Assembly: GCA_013112545.1 (NCBI GenBank) | Contig: JABFGJ010000006.1 | Span: 1-64,000, forward strand | DNA: 64,000 nucleotides | Origin: Bacteroidota bacterium | Lineage (GTDB): Bacteria; Bacteroidota; Bacteroidia; Flavobacteriales_E; Vicingaceae | Direction: 5' to 3' | Part shown: positions 6,232-39,741 of the stretch, piece after piece | How the letters are laid out: each line of letters begins with the position of its first letter | Numbering within the stretch: the first letter of the stretch is position 1 | Translations under genes and position numbers: made by a program | Notes under the pieces: model-generated | Databases searched by the model: none | The model's input: only the letters and a program-made list of their open reading frames with translations | What the model was told of the DNA's origin: nothing

Positions 6232-8835
6232 TTAAACCAAGCCCCTAGCTTCTTCTAATGCTTTTGCTAATCCATCTGGGTTCTTCCCTCCTGCTGTTGC
6301 AAAAAAAGCTTGACCTCCGCCACCACCCTGTATGTGTTTGGCTAAGTTTCTTACGATAGTTCCTGCATTCCAATCTTTTTCTTCAACCAAATTATCGCTA
6401 ATCAAAACTGTTAAGGATGGCTTTGCATCTTTCTTAGTTCCTAAAACCATGAAAAGATTATTCACTTCAGCTTTAAGCTGAAAAGCCACATTTTTAATGC
6501 CTGCTGCATCTAAATCAACTTCTTCTATTAAAATTTGAATTCCATCTTTCGCAATAACTTTTTTAAGTAAATCGTCTTTTAAACTTCCAGCTGCTTTTGC
6601 TTTAAATGATTCCAATTCTTTTTGCAGACTACTGTTTTCTACTTGCAAGTTTTCAATAGCGCTGCCAATGTTTTTAGGGTTTTTCAATTTAGATTTAAGT
6701 TCTTGAATCATATCATTTTGCTCAAAAAATAAATCCAATGCCCTTTCAGATGAAATGGCTTCAATTCTTCTAATTCCCGCAGCTACAGCACCTTCTGAAA
6801 CTATTTTAAACAAGCCTATCTCTCCTGTTGCTTGCACATGTATTCCACCACACAATTCTACCGAAGTTCCAAATTGTATCATTCGGACAACGTCACCATA
6901 CTTCTCTCCAAAAAGCGCCATCGCTCCTTTAGATCGAGCTTCTTCAAGGGGTATAGTTCTTTCTTCATTTAAAGGAATATTAGCTCTAATCTTAGCATTT
7001 ACTTTTGATTCAATTTCACGTATTTCGTCGAAAGTCAACTTTTGAAAATGTGAAAAATCAAACCTGAGGTATTCTGAATTTACTAAAGAGCCCTTTTGCT
7101 CTACATGTAAACCTAAAACCGTTCTTAAGGTTTCGTGTAATAAGTGAGTTGCTGAGTGGTTTGCAGCTGTTAGTTTTCGCTTTTTCTTGCTGACTTCAGC
7201 ATTGAAATCCGATTTTAAATTTTTAGGTAACTTATCTGTAAAGTGAATGATTAGGTTGTTTTCTTTTTTAGTGTCAAAAACCTCTATCTTTTCTTCTCCA
7301 TTATCAATAAAACCAGTGTCGCCAATTTGGCCTCCACCTTCGGGATAAAATGGACTCAGATTAAAAACCAATTGATAAAAATCCTTCCCTTTTTGATTCA
7401 CCTTACGATAGCGCGTAATTTTTATTTTTGCTTCGTTATAATCATATCCAATGAATTCTTCTTTTTCATCTTTTAGCAGTTCCACCCAATCTTGAGCATC
7501 GATTTTAGAAGCATTTCTAGATCTGTCTTTTTGTGTTTTGAGGTTAGCCTCAAAAACTTCCATATCAACTTTTAAGTTTTTCTCAATAGCCAATAATTGA
7601 GTCAAATCTATCGGAAAACCAAAGGTATCATACAACTCAAAAGCAAAATCTCCTGAGATGGTTTTAGGGTTTTGTTGAGTATAGTTTTCAAACAATTGAA
7701 TACCCTTTTCTAAGGTTGATAGAAAGGATTGCTCCTCTTCATAAATTACTTTTTCGATTAATTGTTGTTGTTTATCTAACTCTACAAACTGCTCGCCTAA
7801 AGTTTCATTTAATACTCCAACCAATTGATATAAAAATGGCTTCTTTAAGTCTAAGAAACTATACCCATAGCGGACTGCTCTTCTCAATATTCTTCGAATG
7901 ACATATCCTGCTCCGGTATTGGAAGGCAATTGCCCATCTGCAATAGAAAAGGATATTGCGCGAATATGATCAACTATAACTCTAAAAGCTATGTCTTTTT
8001 TTTGTTCGCTTGCCGTGTATTTTTTTCCGGTAATGCTTTCTAATTTTCGAATAGAAGGCATAAAAACATCTGTATCATAATTAGAAGTTTTACCTTGTAA
8101 AGCCATGCAAAGCCTTTCAAATCCCATTCCGGTATCAACATGTTTAGCAGGTAGCTTTTGTAAGCTTTTATCTTTTAGCCTGTTAAATTCCATGAAAACC
8201 AAATTCCAAATTTCAACCACTTGAGGGTGATCGGCATTTACGAGGGTTTTACCATCAATTTTGGCACGTTCTACTTCTGGTCTTAGATCAATGTGTATTT
8301 CAGAACAAGGGCCACAAGGGCCAACATCGCCCATTTCCCAAAAATTATCCTTCTTGTTGGCTTTAATAATTCGATTTTCATCTATGATTTTAGCCCAAGC
8401 CTTGTATGAATCGACATCTTCTTCCAAGTTATCTTCTTCATCACCTTCAAAAATGGTTACATAAAGTCTATCCTTATCTAACTTATACCTTTCGGTTAAT
8501 AATTCCCAAGCCCAAGGAATCATTTCTTCTTTAAAGTAGTCGCCAAAAGACCAGTTACCGAGCATTTCAAACATGGTGTGATGATAAGTATCTACACCAA
8601 CCTCCTCTAAATCATTATGTTTACCCGATACACGCAAACACTTCTGAGAATCGGCAACTCGGTCAGCAATTGGTTTTGCATTTCCCAAAAAAGCATCCTT
8701 AAATTGGTTCATACCTGCATTGGTAAATAGCAGAGTTGGGTCATCTTTTATGACGATGGGTGCCGATGGAACTAGCTGATGTCCTTTCTCTTGAAAAAAG
8801 GATAGAAATATCTTTCGTGTTTCTTTTGAATTCAT
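6232..8835 (-). CDS. alaS: Alanine--tRNA ligase
   Basis: An 867-aa class II synthetase of full length. The N-terminal catalytic core is seen in FTNAGMNQFKDAFLG and FEMLGNWSFGDYFKEE. The editing domain zinc motif is HSATHLLH, with the later CGGIH completing the Cys/His set. The C-terminal C-Ala domain ends with the glycine-rich QGGGGGQAFFATAGG. It charges tRNA-Ala and clears mischarged Ser or Gly. The start ATG at 8835 has a candidate divergent promoter (TTTG-N19-GATGTTTG, 8912-8882 on the minus strand). Probably the first gene of a run with the UbiD-family gene and the Omp85 barrel. Confidence 0.97.
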   Translation of the reverse strand: MNSKETRKIFLSFFQEKGHQLVPSAPIVIKDDPTLLFTNAGMNQFKDAFLGNAKPIADRVADSQKCLRVSGKHNDLEEVGVDTYHHTMFEMLGNWSFGDYFKEEMIPWAWELLTERYKLDKDRLYVTIFEGDEEDNLEEDVDSYKAWAKIIDENRIIKANKKDNFWEMGDVGPCGPCSEIHIDLRPEVERAKIDGKTLVNADHPQVVEIWNLVFMEFNRLKDKSLQKLPAKHVDTGMGFERLCMALQGKTSNYDTDVFMPSIRKLESITGKKYTASEQKKDIAFRVIVDHIRAISFSIADGQLPSNTGAGYVIRRILRRAVRYGYSFLDLKKPFLYQLVGVLNETLGEQFVELDKQQQLIEKVIYEEEQSFLSTLEKGIQLFENYTQQNPKTISGDFAFELYDTFGFPIDLTQLLAIEKNLKVDMEVFEANLKTQKDRSRNASKIDAQDWVELLKDEKEEFIGYDYNEAKIKITRYRKVNQKGKDFYQLVFNLSPFYPEGGGQIGDTGFIDNGEEKIEVFDTKKENNLIIHFTDKLPKNLKSDFNAEVSKKKRKLTAANHSATHLLHETLRTVLGLHVEQKGSLVNSEYLRFDFSHFQKLTFDEIREIESKVNAKIRANIPLNEERTIPLEEARSKGAMALFGEKYGDVVRMIQFGTSVELCGGIHVQATGEIGLFKIVSEGAVAAGIRRIEAISSERALDLFFEQNDMIQELKSKLKNPKNIGSAIENLQVENSSLQKELESFKAKAAGSLKDDLLKKVIAKDGIQILIEEVDLDAAGIKNVAFQLKAEVNNLFMVLGTKKDAKPSLTVLISDNLVEEKDWNAGTIVRNLAKHIQGGGGGQAFFATAGGKNPDGLAKALEEARGLV

Positions 8836-36154: not shown

Positions 36155-36475
36155 TTAACCAATTGATAAAGTAATCGTTTTACCAAATCCTATTTCAATT
36201 AATCTATATAGGGTAGATAATTGAATGTCGCTATGGCCGTTTTCAATTCTTGAAATAAAGCTTTTACGAGTTCCCGTTTTTTCAGCTAATTGCTCTTGAG
36301 TCATTTTCGCTTCTTTACGAGCATCTCTAATTATTTCGCCAATAGCAAATGCTTTAGCTTTAATTTCAAACATTGCCCTTTTCTCCGTACCAACAGCACC
36401 ATACCTTTCAGTTAAATGGTCATCAAAATTTGTTAAGTGATTTTTAAATAAAAAGATTTTTCGCTTTTCTTTCAC
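36155..36475 (-). CDS. HigA-like XRE antitoxin, orphan
   Basis: A 106-aa DNA-binding protein starting at GTG 36475. The N-terminal 40 residues (HLTERYGAVGTEKRAMFEIKA) and the helix-turn-helix (MTQEQLAEKTGTRKSFISRIE, GHSDIQLSTLYRLIE) match HigA antitoxins that normally follow a HigB/RelE toxin gene. The sequence upstream on the minus strand (36476-36590) does not contain an open toxin gene. It is thus an orphan antitoxin or a regulator recruited from one. Confidence 0.75.
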   Translation of the reverse strand: MKEKRKIFLFKNHLTNFDDHLTERYGAVGTEKRAMFEIKAKAFAIGEIIRDARKEAKMTQEQLAEKTGTRKSFISRIENGHSDIQLSTLYRLIEIGFGKTITLSIG

Positions 36476-36585: not shown

Positions 36586-37425
36586 TTAGCTAAACAATTC
36601 TCCAAATTTCACACTAACATCTAATCGAGCGCCTTTTTCTGTGTCTTTTAGCGTTATTACTTCGTTTTGATAATCGTGCTCTAAAAAGAGGTACAAGTTT
36701 TCGTCTATGGCTTTTTTATAAAAGCGCTTTCTATCTTCTAAAGTCAGCAAAGGTCTAGTATCGTAACCCATAACATAAGGCATAGGAATATGACCGGCTG
36801 AAGGAAGTAAATCGGCCATAAACGCAAGGCGCTTACCTTGATAATTAATGATTGGAATCATCATCGCATCGGTGTGACCGTCGGCATAAAATAGATCAAA
36901 CAAATCAAATGGTTCTTCTTCTACAAATTTCAATTGCCCCAATTCTTTCATGGGTAAAATATTCTCTTTCAAGAAGGAAGCTTTTTCTCGGTCATTAGGT
37001 TGTGTAGCCCATTTCCAATGCTTTTTATTAGACCAATAAGTGGCATTTTTAAAAGTGGCTTCGTAGTTAGTTCGGTCTGCATTCCACTTGATTCCACCAC
37101 CACAATGATCGAAATGCAGGTGAGTTAAAAAAACATCGGTAATGTCGTCGGGGTGAAATCCAAGTTTTTTTATGGAACTCATTAAACTATCGTCGCCAAA
37201 CAAATAATAATAGCCAAAAAATTTATCCGATTGTTTGTCGCCCATGCCGTTATCAATTAAGATTAAGCGATTGCCATCTTCAATTAGCATGCAGCGCAAA
37301 GCCCAAGAACACATATTATTGCTGTCAGCTGGGTTTGTTTTTTGCCACAAAGATTTTGGCACAACGCCAAACATGGCACCGCCATCTAATTTAAAATTTC
37401 CTGTTTCTATTGGATATATTTTCAT
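36586..37425 (-). CDS. MBL-fold hydrolase (lactonase-like)
   Basis: A 279-aa cytoplasmic protein with the metallo-beta-lactamase motif LTHLHFDHCGGG, the later metal ligands DGHTDAM and LEHD, and the IDNGMGDK strand. The closest type is the group with AHL-lactonase-like and related hydrolases; the substrate cannot be told. It lacks a signal peptide. It is isolated, between an orphan antitoxin and a repeat-rich spacer. Confidence 0.82.
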   Translation of the reverse strand: MKIYPIETGNFKLDGGAMFGVVPKSLWQKTNPADSNNMCSWALRCMLIEDGNRLILIDNGMGDKQSDKFFGYYYLFGDDSLMSSIKKLGFHPDDITDVFLTHLHFDHCGGGIKWNADRTNYEATFKNATYWSNKKHWKWATQPNDREKASFLKENILPMKELGQLKFVEEEPFDLFDLFYADGHTDAMMIPIINYQGKRLAFMADLLPSAGHIPMPYVMGYDTRPLLTLEDRKRFYKKAIDENLYLFLEHDYQNEVITLKDTEKGARLDVSVKFGELFS

Positions 37426-37589
37426 GACTCAAATATCCTGAATAGTTTTCTTTGTTTCAAGGGGAGTAAGTTTAAAGTTTGAATTGTCTTTTGAAAGGGT
37501 ATTGACTTGTTCAGAATTAGATAAAAACAGAGAGTGTATAAAAGAAAACAGAGCAAGTTAATTTTGGACTAGTCAAACAAAGAAAAGTT

Positions 37590-37818
37590 CGACCCCTTTA
37601 GGGTCGTTTTTACTACTGAACGTTACTTATAAATGTGCAATCCTTTCAGGATTGTATCATATGAAAGAAATAAAACTTTGGTTGCCAATCGCCTCTCTAA
37701 AATATTAAAATTTCAGTTACGAACTGAATTTTTTAATGCTTTGTCGTATCGAACCCGAAGGGTTCGCAGCTTTATAAAACAAATATAAATTAAAATAGAA
37801 TCGACTCTGAAGGTGTCG
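37590..37818. repeat. Cluster of five 17-bp hairpins with 6-5-6 geometry
   Basis: Five short palindromes share the same build, a 6-bp stem and 5-nt loop: 37590-37606 (CGACCC/GGGTCG), 37638-37654 (CAATCC/GGATTG), 37712-37728 (TTCAGT/ACTGAA), 37750-37766 (CGAACC/GGTTCG) and 37802-37818 (CGACTC/GTGTCG, one mismatch). Stems differ but stay paired. Loops on one strand or the other resemble YGAAR. No gene overlaps them. Confidence 0.65.
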
Positions 37819-37911
37819 CACTCCATGTTGTGCTTTACAGTCGGAATTGTTCGAGCAAAAAAGACAAGGATATTTTAAGTGTAAATCTCAATTATCCACT
37901 CCTTATAGATT

Positions 37912-37941
37912 CCGCTCCGCATGGATTTGTAATCCTGCGGC
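37912..37941. repeat. First copy of the CCGCTCCGC repeat core
   Basis: The core CCGCTCCGCATGGATTTG/AATCCTGCGG forms a hairpin CCGCA-(T)-GGATT / AATCC-TGCGG. This copy is outside the tandem array and has loop tgt instead of tgc. Confidence 0.7.
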
Positions 37942-37946
37942 AAACA

Positions 37947-37970
37947 AAAGGCCAACTCGTATTGGCCTTT
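37947..37970 (+). terminator. Terminator-like hairpin
   Basis: AAAGGCCAA (37947-37955) and TTGGCCTTT (37962-37970) form a perfect 9-bp stem with a 6-nt loop, followed by a T-rich stretch. No gene ends close by, so what it terminates is unclear. Confidence 0.5.
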
Positions 37971-38130
37971 AGCTTTTCAAAAAAATCAACTTTTAGCTTC
38001 ATTTCACATAACAATACTATAAATCATCATTATCACATTTAAATTTTACTAATTTGGTTTGACTATAAATGCCTGATAATCTTACTTAAAAAGTAAGATT
38101 ATGGTAACAACTTTAATTTTCGATTTTTTA

Positions 38131-38928
38131 TCCCGCTCCGCATGGATTTGCAATCCTGCGGCAAACTTAGAAACGAAATTGTATTTTTATAACACTGAGT
38201 TGCAATAAAAGTGAAAGAGTTGTTGTGTTTCGACTACCGGCTCTGCTGAGTTAATCGAAGAACTCAACATGACAACTCTACCCTGCTCAACATATAAACT
38301 CAATTTCGCAATTGATAATTATTAATTAAACATTGGTATTTATCAATTCCCTGATTAATATTTCCCCGCTCCGCATGGATTTGCAATCCTGCGGCAAACT
38401 TAGAAACGAAATTGTATTTTTATAACACTAAGGTTGCAATAAAAGTGAAAGAGTTGTTGTGTTTCGACTACCGGCTCTGCTGTGTTAATCGAAGAACTCA
38501 ACATGACAACTCTACCCTGCTCAACATGCAAACTCAATTTCCCCGCTCCGCATGGATTTGCAATCCTGCGGCAAACTTAGAAACGAAATTGTATTTTTAT
38601 AACACTAAGGTTGCAATAAAAGTAAAAGAGTTGTAATGTATCGACTACCGCTCAACAAGCAAACTCAATTTCGCAATTGATAATTATTAATTAAACATTG
38701 GTATTTATCAATTCCCTGATTAATATTTCCCCGCTCCGCATGGATTTGCAATCCTGCGGCAAACTTAGAAACAAAATTGTATTTTTATAACACTAAGGTT
38801 GCAATAAAAGTGAAAGAGTTGTAATGTATCGACTACCGCTCAACATGCAAACTCAATTTCGCAAATGTTAATTACTAATTAAACATTAGTAATTATCAAT
38901 TCTCAGATTAGTAATTCACATTGTTTTT
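38131..38928. repeat. Four tandem modular repeats, about 180-230 bp each
   Basis: Units begin with the CCGCTCC core at 38133, 38366, 38543 and 38731 and run to about 38928. Each contains the palindromic core, a constant stretch (aaacttagaaacgaaattg... to ...gcaataaaagtgaaagagtt) and two optional modules. Module A (ccggctctgctg...ctaccctgc) is present in units 1 and 2 only. Module B (cgcaattgataatt...atcaattccctgatt, itself an inverted repeat) is present in units 1 and 3, in diverged form in unit 4, and absent from unit 2. No open reading frame of substance is conserved between units. Confidence 0.85.
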
Positions 38929-39741
38929 TTACCAGCTGCCACCTGCGCCGCCGCCGCCGAAACTACCGCCGCCAAATCCACCGAAGCCGCCACCACCCCC
39001 CCCTCCGAAACCGCCAAAGCCGCCTCTTCCTGATGTGAAATTATTATAATGTCCTCGATGGCTATTATTCATTGAGCCCATCAACATTAATGCAGCCCAC
39101 AAACCCAAATTGTTTTGCGCTCCATACGCTTTGGCTCTTCTTATGGTGCCAAGAAACATCACTAAAATAAAAAATCCGATAAACAAAAACGGCAGAATTG
39201 GAACGGATCCACCTCTGCCTTTTTTATTGTACTGCTCGGCGGAATATTCTCCACCAGTTATTTCAATCACCGTTTGAACTCCATTGTCTATTCCACCAAA
39301 ATAATCGTTGTTTTTAAATCGGGGAATCATTTCATTCTCAACTATCCTTTTGGCAATGGCATCTGGCAAAACCCCTTCTAAACCATAGCCAGGAGCTATA
39401 AATACTTCGCCTCGTTCATTGCCCACTTTCGGTTTCAACAAGATTACTATTCCATTGTTAAACTCCTTGTTACCAATGCCCCATGTCTCCCCTATTTCGT
39501 AGGCAAACTGTGCTTTATCATATCCGCAAAGACTGTTTACGGTTATTATAGCAATTTGAGTTGAAGTAGTGTCGTTAAAACCGACCAATTTACTTTCTAA
39601 GTAATTACTTTCTTGCGCAGAAAACACTTGAGCAAAATCATTAACTAAGCGTTGTTTGCTCGGCTTTTTTGGAAAACAATCGTCTTGCGCAAAAAGTCCA
39701 AAAGAAAAGAGAATTAAGGAAAGTAAAATTAATTTTTTCAT
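38929..39741 (-). CDS. TPM-domain membrane protein with Gly-rich tail
   Basis: A 270-aa protein: signal peptide (LILLSLILFSFGLFAQ), a periplasmic TPM domain (LVNDFAQVFSAQESNYLE, TVNSLCGYDKAQFAYEIG, GNEREVFIAPGYGLEG-like), one membrane helix near residue 185 (PILPFLFIGFFILVMFLG) and a tail of Gly/Phe/Ser repeats that ends GGSW. This is the YgcG-like protein of the LemA-TPM-TPM cluster. The tail's low complexity is normal for the family. It follows the other TPM gene by 3 nt. Confidence 0.87.
   Translation of the reverse strand: MKKLILLSLILFSFGLFAQDDCFPKKPSKQRLVNDFAQVFSAQESNYLESKLVGFNDTTSTQIAIITVNSLCGYDKAQFAYEIGETWGIGNKEFNNGIVILLKPKVGNERGEVFIAPGYGLEGVLPDAIAKRIVENEMIPRFKNNDYFGGIDNGVQTVIEITGGEYSAEQYNKKGRGGSVPILPFLFIGFFILVMFLGTIRRAKAYGAQNNLGLWAALMLMGSMNNSHRGHYNNFTSGRGGFGGFGGGGGGGFGGFGGGSFGGGGAGGSW

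Follow-up and report, generated by a model that had tools for sequence, protein, structure and literature searches.

The window analysed here is a stretch of 64,000 nucleotides of a Bacteroidota bacterium of the Vicingaceae (assembly GCA_013112545.1, contig JABFGJ010000006.1, positions 1 to 64,000). At 37590-37818 it carries a cluster of short hairpins adjoining tandem repeats, and related hairpins surround a gene for a TnpA-type transposase of the Y1 (IS200-like) family elsewhere in the same genome. The first-pass annotation of the window had described five hairpins of 6-bp stem and 5-nt loop (6-5-6). Four perfect palindromes of this size are present there, starting at 37590, 37638, 37712 and 37750, while the hairpin at 37802 (CGACTC tgaag GTGTCG) has one T-T mismatch and is hence an imperfect fifth. 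A 7-3-7 reading also fits three of the four perfect hairpins (37638, 37712 and 37750). The cluster is real, and four of its five hairpins make up two facing copies of one module; the unit is not a lone 6-5-6 hairpin. The module consists of a hairpin B, a conserved linker of 31-37 nt ending in a motif close to YTATAAAYATG, and a hairpin C. The features are as follows, each with its basis.

37587..37657, + strand: module 1 (hairpin B, linker, hairpin C), an orphan copy; covariance model R1, trained without the window
37590..37606, + strand: hairpin B of module 1, CGACCC cttta GGGTCG; palindrome scan and R1 alignment
37627..37637, + strand: linker motif TTATAAATGTG, directly 5' of hairpin C; pattern site followed by a 7/7-pair hairpin
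37638..37654, + strand: hairpin C of module 1, CAATCCT ttc AGGATTG; palindrome scan, fixed pattern and R1
37712..37728, no strand assigned: hairpin TTCAGTT acg AACTGAA; perfect palindrome, not covered by R1
37747..37821, - strand: module 2, inverted relative to module 1; R1
37750..37766, - strand: hairpin C of module 2, CGAACCC ttc GGGTTCG on that strand; palindrome scan and R1
37767..37777, - strand: linker end of module 2, TTATAAAGCTG on that strand; R1 alignment
37802..37818, - strand: hairpin B of module 2, decayed; sequence and R1 alignment

The hairpin cluster and its two modules

R1 scored module 1 with 57.1 bits (E 2e-10 in the window, 1e-8 over the genome) and module 2 with 45 bits (E 7.2e-8 and 3.7e-6, respectively). 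As folded DNA module 1 had a z of -4.8 and module 2 one of -3.4, with 2 of 200 shuffles as stable as the latter. In direct alignments the hairpins at 37590 and 37638 matched B and C of the unit beside the transposase gene, linker included (E 6e-6, 69% identity), and 37750 together with 37802 matched the B/C unit in reverse direction (E 1e-4). By eye, module 1 is similar to the copy at C3:7162, with which it shares hairpin C, and module 2 to that at C14:64064. Both copies in the window show signs of decay. Hairpin B of module 1 contains one non-standard pair in the 7-pair reading of the R1 alignment; that of module 2 has one mismatch as 6-5-6 and two non-standard pairs as a 7-pair stem. The linker end of module 2, TTATAAAGCTG, is a variant outside the fixed motif pattern, and linkers resembling it were seen by eye in the copies at C3 and C4. 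The third hairpin of the trio A, B, C found beside the gene is not evident at the window, where all that R1 gave was a weak match in reverse orientation (17.1 bits, E 0.05). With no evident third hairpin and with part of the pairing gone, the pair is probably a degenerate and inactive orphan.

The first-pass annotation had judged five hairpins in 230 bp to exceed chance by far, and the cluster is indeed unusual. The four perfect hairpins span 177 bp; a non-overlapping equivalent was reached in 0 of 300 shuffles, as were three 6-5-6 hairpins with at least three G/C per arm in 177 bp (0 of 300). When overlapping hairpins were counted, four starts within 230 bp occurred in 1 of 40 shuffles. Across the 64 kb, 6-5-6 hairpins were not enriched (38 vs a shuffle mean of 34.5, maximum 45, 40 shuffles), so that a scan for N6-loop-N6 alone is uninformative. 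Among 20 other stretches of the same genome, three of which hold module copies, L101 alone also had four hairpins in 177 bp, and hairpins with at least three G/C per arm never exceeded one per 177 bp. The loop form YGAAR on one strand was recognised by eye in 37638, 37750 and 37802, i.e. in three of the five hairpins; the other two do not share it. The adjoining tandem repeats are real, yet belong to a different family. An Rfam search of 37400-39000 gave no match up to E 1.

The hairpin at 37712 could not be tied to the module family with the R1 model. The fold of 37700-37740 had a z of -5.4. The hairpin is stable, its A/T-rich arms extend the stem, and six T follow.

The module beside the transposase gene

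The gene next to the cluster has its best public match in a Vicingaceae bacterium, with most of the following ones in records of Flavobacteriales and Bacteroidia, in line with the phylum Bacteroidota. In the genome (3.27 Mb in 24 contigs) PF01797 (Y1, IS200-like) matched one gene, located on C2. Its protein carries the motifs YVMNQKEHH, NHIH and WQ. The first fits Y---Q--HH, the signature of subclass 1.2 TnpA-Y1, for which PMC6006769 enters 'no' under REP (repetitive extragenic palindromic sequences); assignment to the subclass is based on motif and length. The protein is named IS200/IS605 family transposase in NCBIfam, and the solved relatives found for it are transposases, e.g. that of ISHp608. 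Beside the gene short hairpins A, B and C recur in this order, joined by TTTATAAA-like linkers. A stretch of 113 nt is present in seven copies of at least 60% identity; a single copy lies to one side of the gene, and the opposite side holds six at intervals of about 261 nt. The module of the window was found on both sides. The first-pass annotation had proposed to check for proximity to transposase or RAYT genes, and indeed the one Y1 gene found in the genome sits within an array of the same module.

Additional copies were located at C1:70400-71227 and C3:122973-123085. Genome-wide, R1 gave at least 35 matches at E 2.2e-5 or better, with 150 of 2124 candidates scored. They fall in seven places: C1, C2 (the gene), C3 twice, C4, C6 (the window) and C14. 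Eight training rows of R1 come from this genome (C1, C2 and C3), none of them from the two window modules. Eight places were inspected for open reading frames (ORFs), including one with a weak match (C11, E 0.02); apart from that of tnpA itself, none of 100 aa or more was overlapped. The surrounding ORFs were convergent at five, tandem at three and divergent at none of them. The gene-less copies are intergenic, and their stems differ from copy to copy yet remain paired. Between two module readings at C3 a long palindrome, TTCAACCCTCAGAGAGTTTGAAACTCTCTGAGGGTTGAA, was noticed by eye (L240, about 6990-7035).

At E 1e-15 the gene was matched in 164 of the 395 Bacteroidota genomes sampled across the phylum, and with the looser E of 1e-3 in 12 of the 46 from the order. 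We examined 81 gene loci drawn from the better-scoring matches, among them 29 new loci from the matches listed for the phylum plus 40 more from the better-scoring part of these; of the order's 20 loci the eight with E above 1e-19 were omitted, one of which, L147, has such hairpins. Y---Q--HH was found in 78 of the 81 loci, WQ in all 81 and DH[IV]H in 56, the own protein having NHIH instead. The 400-bp flanks of the 81 loci contained 146 short hairpins vs 20.1 in shuffled sequence; 58 control loci gave 9 vs 14.7. Two or more short hairpins within 400 bp were present at 28 of the 81 loci, and neighbouring hairpins were most commonly spaced 45-54 nt apart.

With R1 at E 0.01 the module was detected at 51 of the 81 gene loci, a figure checked against the full listing, and at 41 of the 71 loci outside training. 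By comparison, the best match in 80 control loci (635 kb) had an E of 0.61, and 29 loci with orthologues of the metallo-hydrolase gene that neighbours the cluster gave nothing up to E 1. An empty site was sought beside these orthologues and could not be demonstrated: neither in 28 of the 80 public loci nor in the 29 of the same family did anything match the TPM, LemA or XRE neighbours found in the window. Close to the gene the module is mostly oriented with hairpin B nearest: outside training, R1 gave 42 matches no more than 120 bp from the gene, 34 of which have B on the gene side. A near module on both sides of the gene was seen at 11 of 42 loci with a near match, training loci included. Over all loci the near-gene count was 63 matches, 49 with B nearest, taken from 156 of 177 rows. 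Of the 21 rows left out, 11 read the opposite strand of stretches that were counted already (L156, L158 and L150). The own array (L130) accounts for six, L156 and L150 for two more between them, and L159 and L172 for one apiece. Training loci hold 19 of these rows, and the other two are more than 250 bp away from the gene, which leaves the near-gene figures for loci outside training unchanged; the all-loci count would gain five matches of opposite orientation.

Module and gene also co-occurred at the level of genomes. The gene was present in 57 of 63 genomes with the module vs 107 of 332 without it (p 1e-18; 2e-15 when the nine training genomes were removed), and within the order in 5 of 6 vs 7 of 40 (p 0.003), all three values ignoring relatedness. 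Comparison of 137 module rows with 70 gene places put at least 41 rows within 1.5 kb of a gene; 14 of the 41 were in genomes outside training, where the rough chance expectation was 0.2.

The linker motif, close to YTAYAAAYATG 5' of the hairpin, emerged when 263 hairpins and their flanks were aligned in two orientations, a step run without a shuffled control. As a fixed pattern it had 89 sites in the 81 gene loci, 42 of them (in 13 loci) followed by a hairpin with at least 6 of 7 pairs, compared with 14 of 526 at offset positions; since these loci also supplied the hairpin flanks from which the motif was derived, 42/89 is not independent and holds partly by construction. In the 80 control loci 0 of 25 sites were followed by a hairpin. 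In 459 kb of this genome it was 9 of 28, at the window and the copies at C1, C2 and C3, the C2 sites belonging to a locus that is also among the 81.

The first-pass annotation had read the stem changes as covariation and as selection on structure rather than sequence. The five window hairpins are not mutual copies and cannot show this; support comes from the modules aligned across genomes. Of 34 modules 31 were aligned, leaving out that of the window and two of L156. Two-sided changes occurred in 11 of 14 stem pairs, with 52 such cells vs 10.9 in shuffles. The aligned modules were 95.4% paired, a figure inflated by their having been chosen for at least 6 of 7 pairs, and slid pairings dropped to 26-49% paired. 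Stems varied widely, e.g. CGACCCC, TGATGCC, TTGCCCC and CCGCTCC.

A probable REP-like element of a subclass 1.2 transposase

We favor the view, with a probability of about 0.7, that the cluster in the window represents a REP-like element of a subclass 1.2 TnpA-type HuH single-strand transposase, in two copies that face each other and have partly decayed. For related enzymes such substrates are on record: TnpA of IS608 and ISDra2 binds hairpins formed by single-stranded DNA, a guide located 5' of the hairpin determines where it cuts, and the E. coli TnpA-REP processes REPs with a GTAG foot (PMC6006769 and PMC8266576). By analogy, the conserved motif 5' of hairpin C is a candidate guide or cleavage region. 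TnpA may bind the hairpins in the single-stranded state, e.g. on the lagging-strand template, and would recognise the shape of the hairpins together with the short motif that precedes hairpin C. Its tyrosine would nick near this motif, and strand transfer could move or multiply modules in trans, which would give rise to arrays that grow in tandem beside the gene and to orphans scattered elsewhere.

Several observations weigh against this view. No hairpin was found within 400 bp at 35 of the 81 gene loci, and 30 of the 81 had no R1 match at E 0.01. Among the 164 genomes with the gene 107 gave no module match when 12 candidates per genome were scored. Conversely, in seven genomes, G001 among them, the module is present and the gene was not found at E 0.01; orphans that outlasted a lost gene would fit this, yet it weakens a strict dependence. 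Beside the orphan modules no convincing transposase remnant was detected (best E 0.25). Seven places in a genome are few for a REP family. Finally, the choice of modules with at least 6 of 7 pairs favours both pairing and covariation.

Intrinsic transcription terminators, or stabilisers of mRNA 3' ends of neighbouring genes with a secondary link to the transposase, would suit the placement of the eight module places between convergent or tandem and never between divergent ORFs, and hairpin 37590 is terminator-like on both strands (2 such sites found vs 1.1 expected). Terminators, though, would need neither a conserved motif before hairpin C nor a 45-54 nt spacing nor tandem arrays, and they should occur near genes at large, where the 80 control loci gave no module; we consider this explanation unlikely. 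Somewhat less probable still is that the modules are ends of an ordinary IS200/IS605 insertion sequence (IS) and the orphans internally deleted copies. Ends of this family do carry hairpins recognised by TnpA (PMC6006769), and both the NCBIfam name and the ISHp608 relative point that way. On the other hand, the protein has Y---Q--HH, one gene copy was found in the genome, the hairpins form arrays rather than single ends, and PMC6006769 describes subclass 1.2 as not having the properties of an IS.

Chance clustering in intergenic DNA rich in A+T would agree with the whole-window density, which equals that of shuffled sequence, and with the four hairpins of L101. It is very improbable given that none of the 300 shuffles reproduced the cluster and that R1, built without the window, finds both modules. 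Chance is contradicted for four of the five hairpins, while it may hold for 37712.

Palindromes beside Y1 genes are a known kind of structure, and the REP-like view places the module close to the REPs and REPtrons of TnpA-REP (RAYT; subclasses 2.2, 2.4, 2.5, 2.7 and 2.8 in PMC6006769, as for the subclasses named below). Both have short palindromes beside a Y1 HuH gene, an inverted arrangement flanking it, and additional intergenic copies, here at seven places. They differ in the foot: GT[AG]G 0-2 nt 5' of the hairpin was present in 1 of 136 feet of the 34 modules, and the YTATAAAYATG-like motif precedes hairpin C instead. They differ as well in the two-hairpin module with its 45-54 nt spacing and in the enzyme signature, which is that of subclass 1.2 and not of class 2. 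The REP-like structures of subclass 2.6 and class 3 are likewise atypical secondary structures beside a Y1 gene with copies elsewhere, but their Y motifs are YIH[QN]NP and YV[VI][AENY]EQ, the latter with a CnGA foot. Compared with IS608 and ISDra2 the transposase family by sequence and the use of hairpin substrates agree, whereas here one gene copy was found, hairpins form arrays and no defined IS ends were seen. Subclass 1.2 itself agrees in Y---Q--HH, WQ, a similar length and its occurrence in Bacteroidetes; it is described there without IS ends and listed without REPs, which leaves its DNA substrate open as far as that text goes, while here the module accompanies 51 of 81 loci.

A literature search, with most subscription papers outside its scope, returned no account of hairpin modules beside subclass 1.2. 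New within that literature are the two-hairpin module with its foot and spacing and the link of this module to subclass 1.2. There is about an even chance that they define a further kind of REPtron in Bacteroidota, in which subclass 1.2 HuH enzymes read a two-hairpin substrate by its shape and a YTATAAAYATG-like foot. The stems would be nearly free and hence come to differ among genomes, with size, spacing and pairing remaining constant, and orphans such as the window pair would be non-autonomous copies made by the enzyme. With the module, a gene type matched in 164 of the 395 sampled genomes gains a concrete candidate substrate that can be tested, and the extent to which a HuH transposase reads hairpin shape over stem sequence could be examined.

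Neighbouring repeats and other observations

A second palindrome family, CCGCATGGATTTGCAATCCTGCGG, occupies 37909-38917 of the window in five copies 177-233 nt apart. Nine more copies were found in the genome at up to 3 mismatches, compared with 0 for the reversed pattern, and one copy has the paired stem change GGGTT/AACCC. In genome G040 two relatives of the transposase gene, L136 and L143, each contain one internal stop codon; the palindrome CGATGGATGCAATCCATCG lies within 150 bp of these genes and resembles the core of the tandem repeat in the window. By eye, the ORF at 36155-36475 of the window reads like an XRE-type helix-turn-helix regulator or antitoxin.
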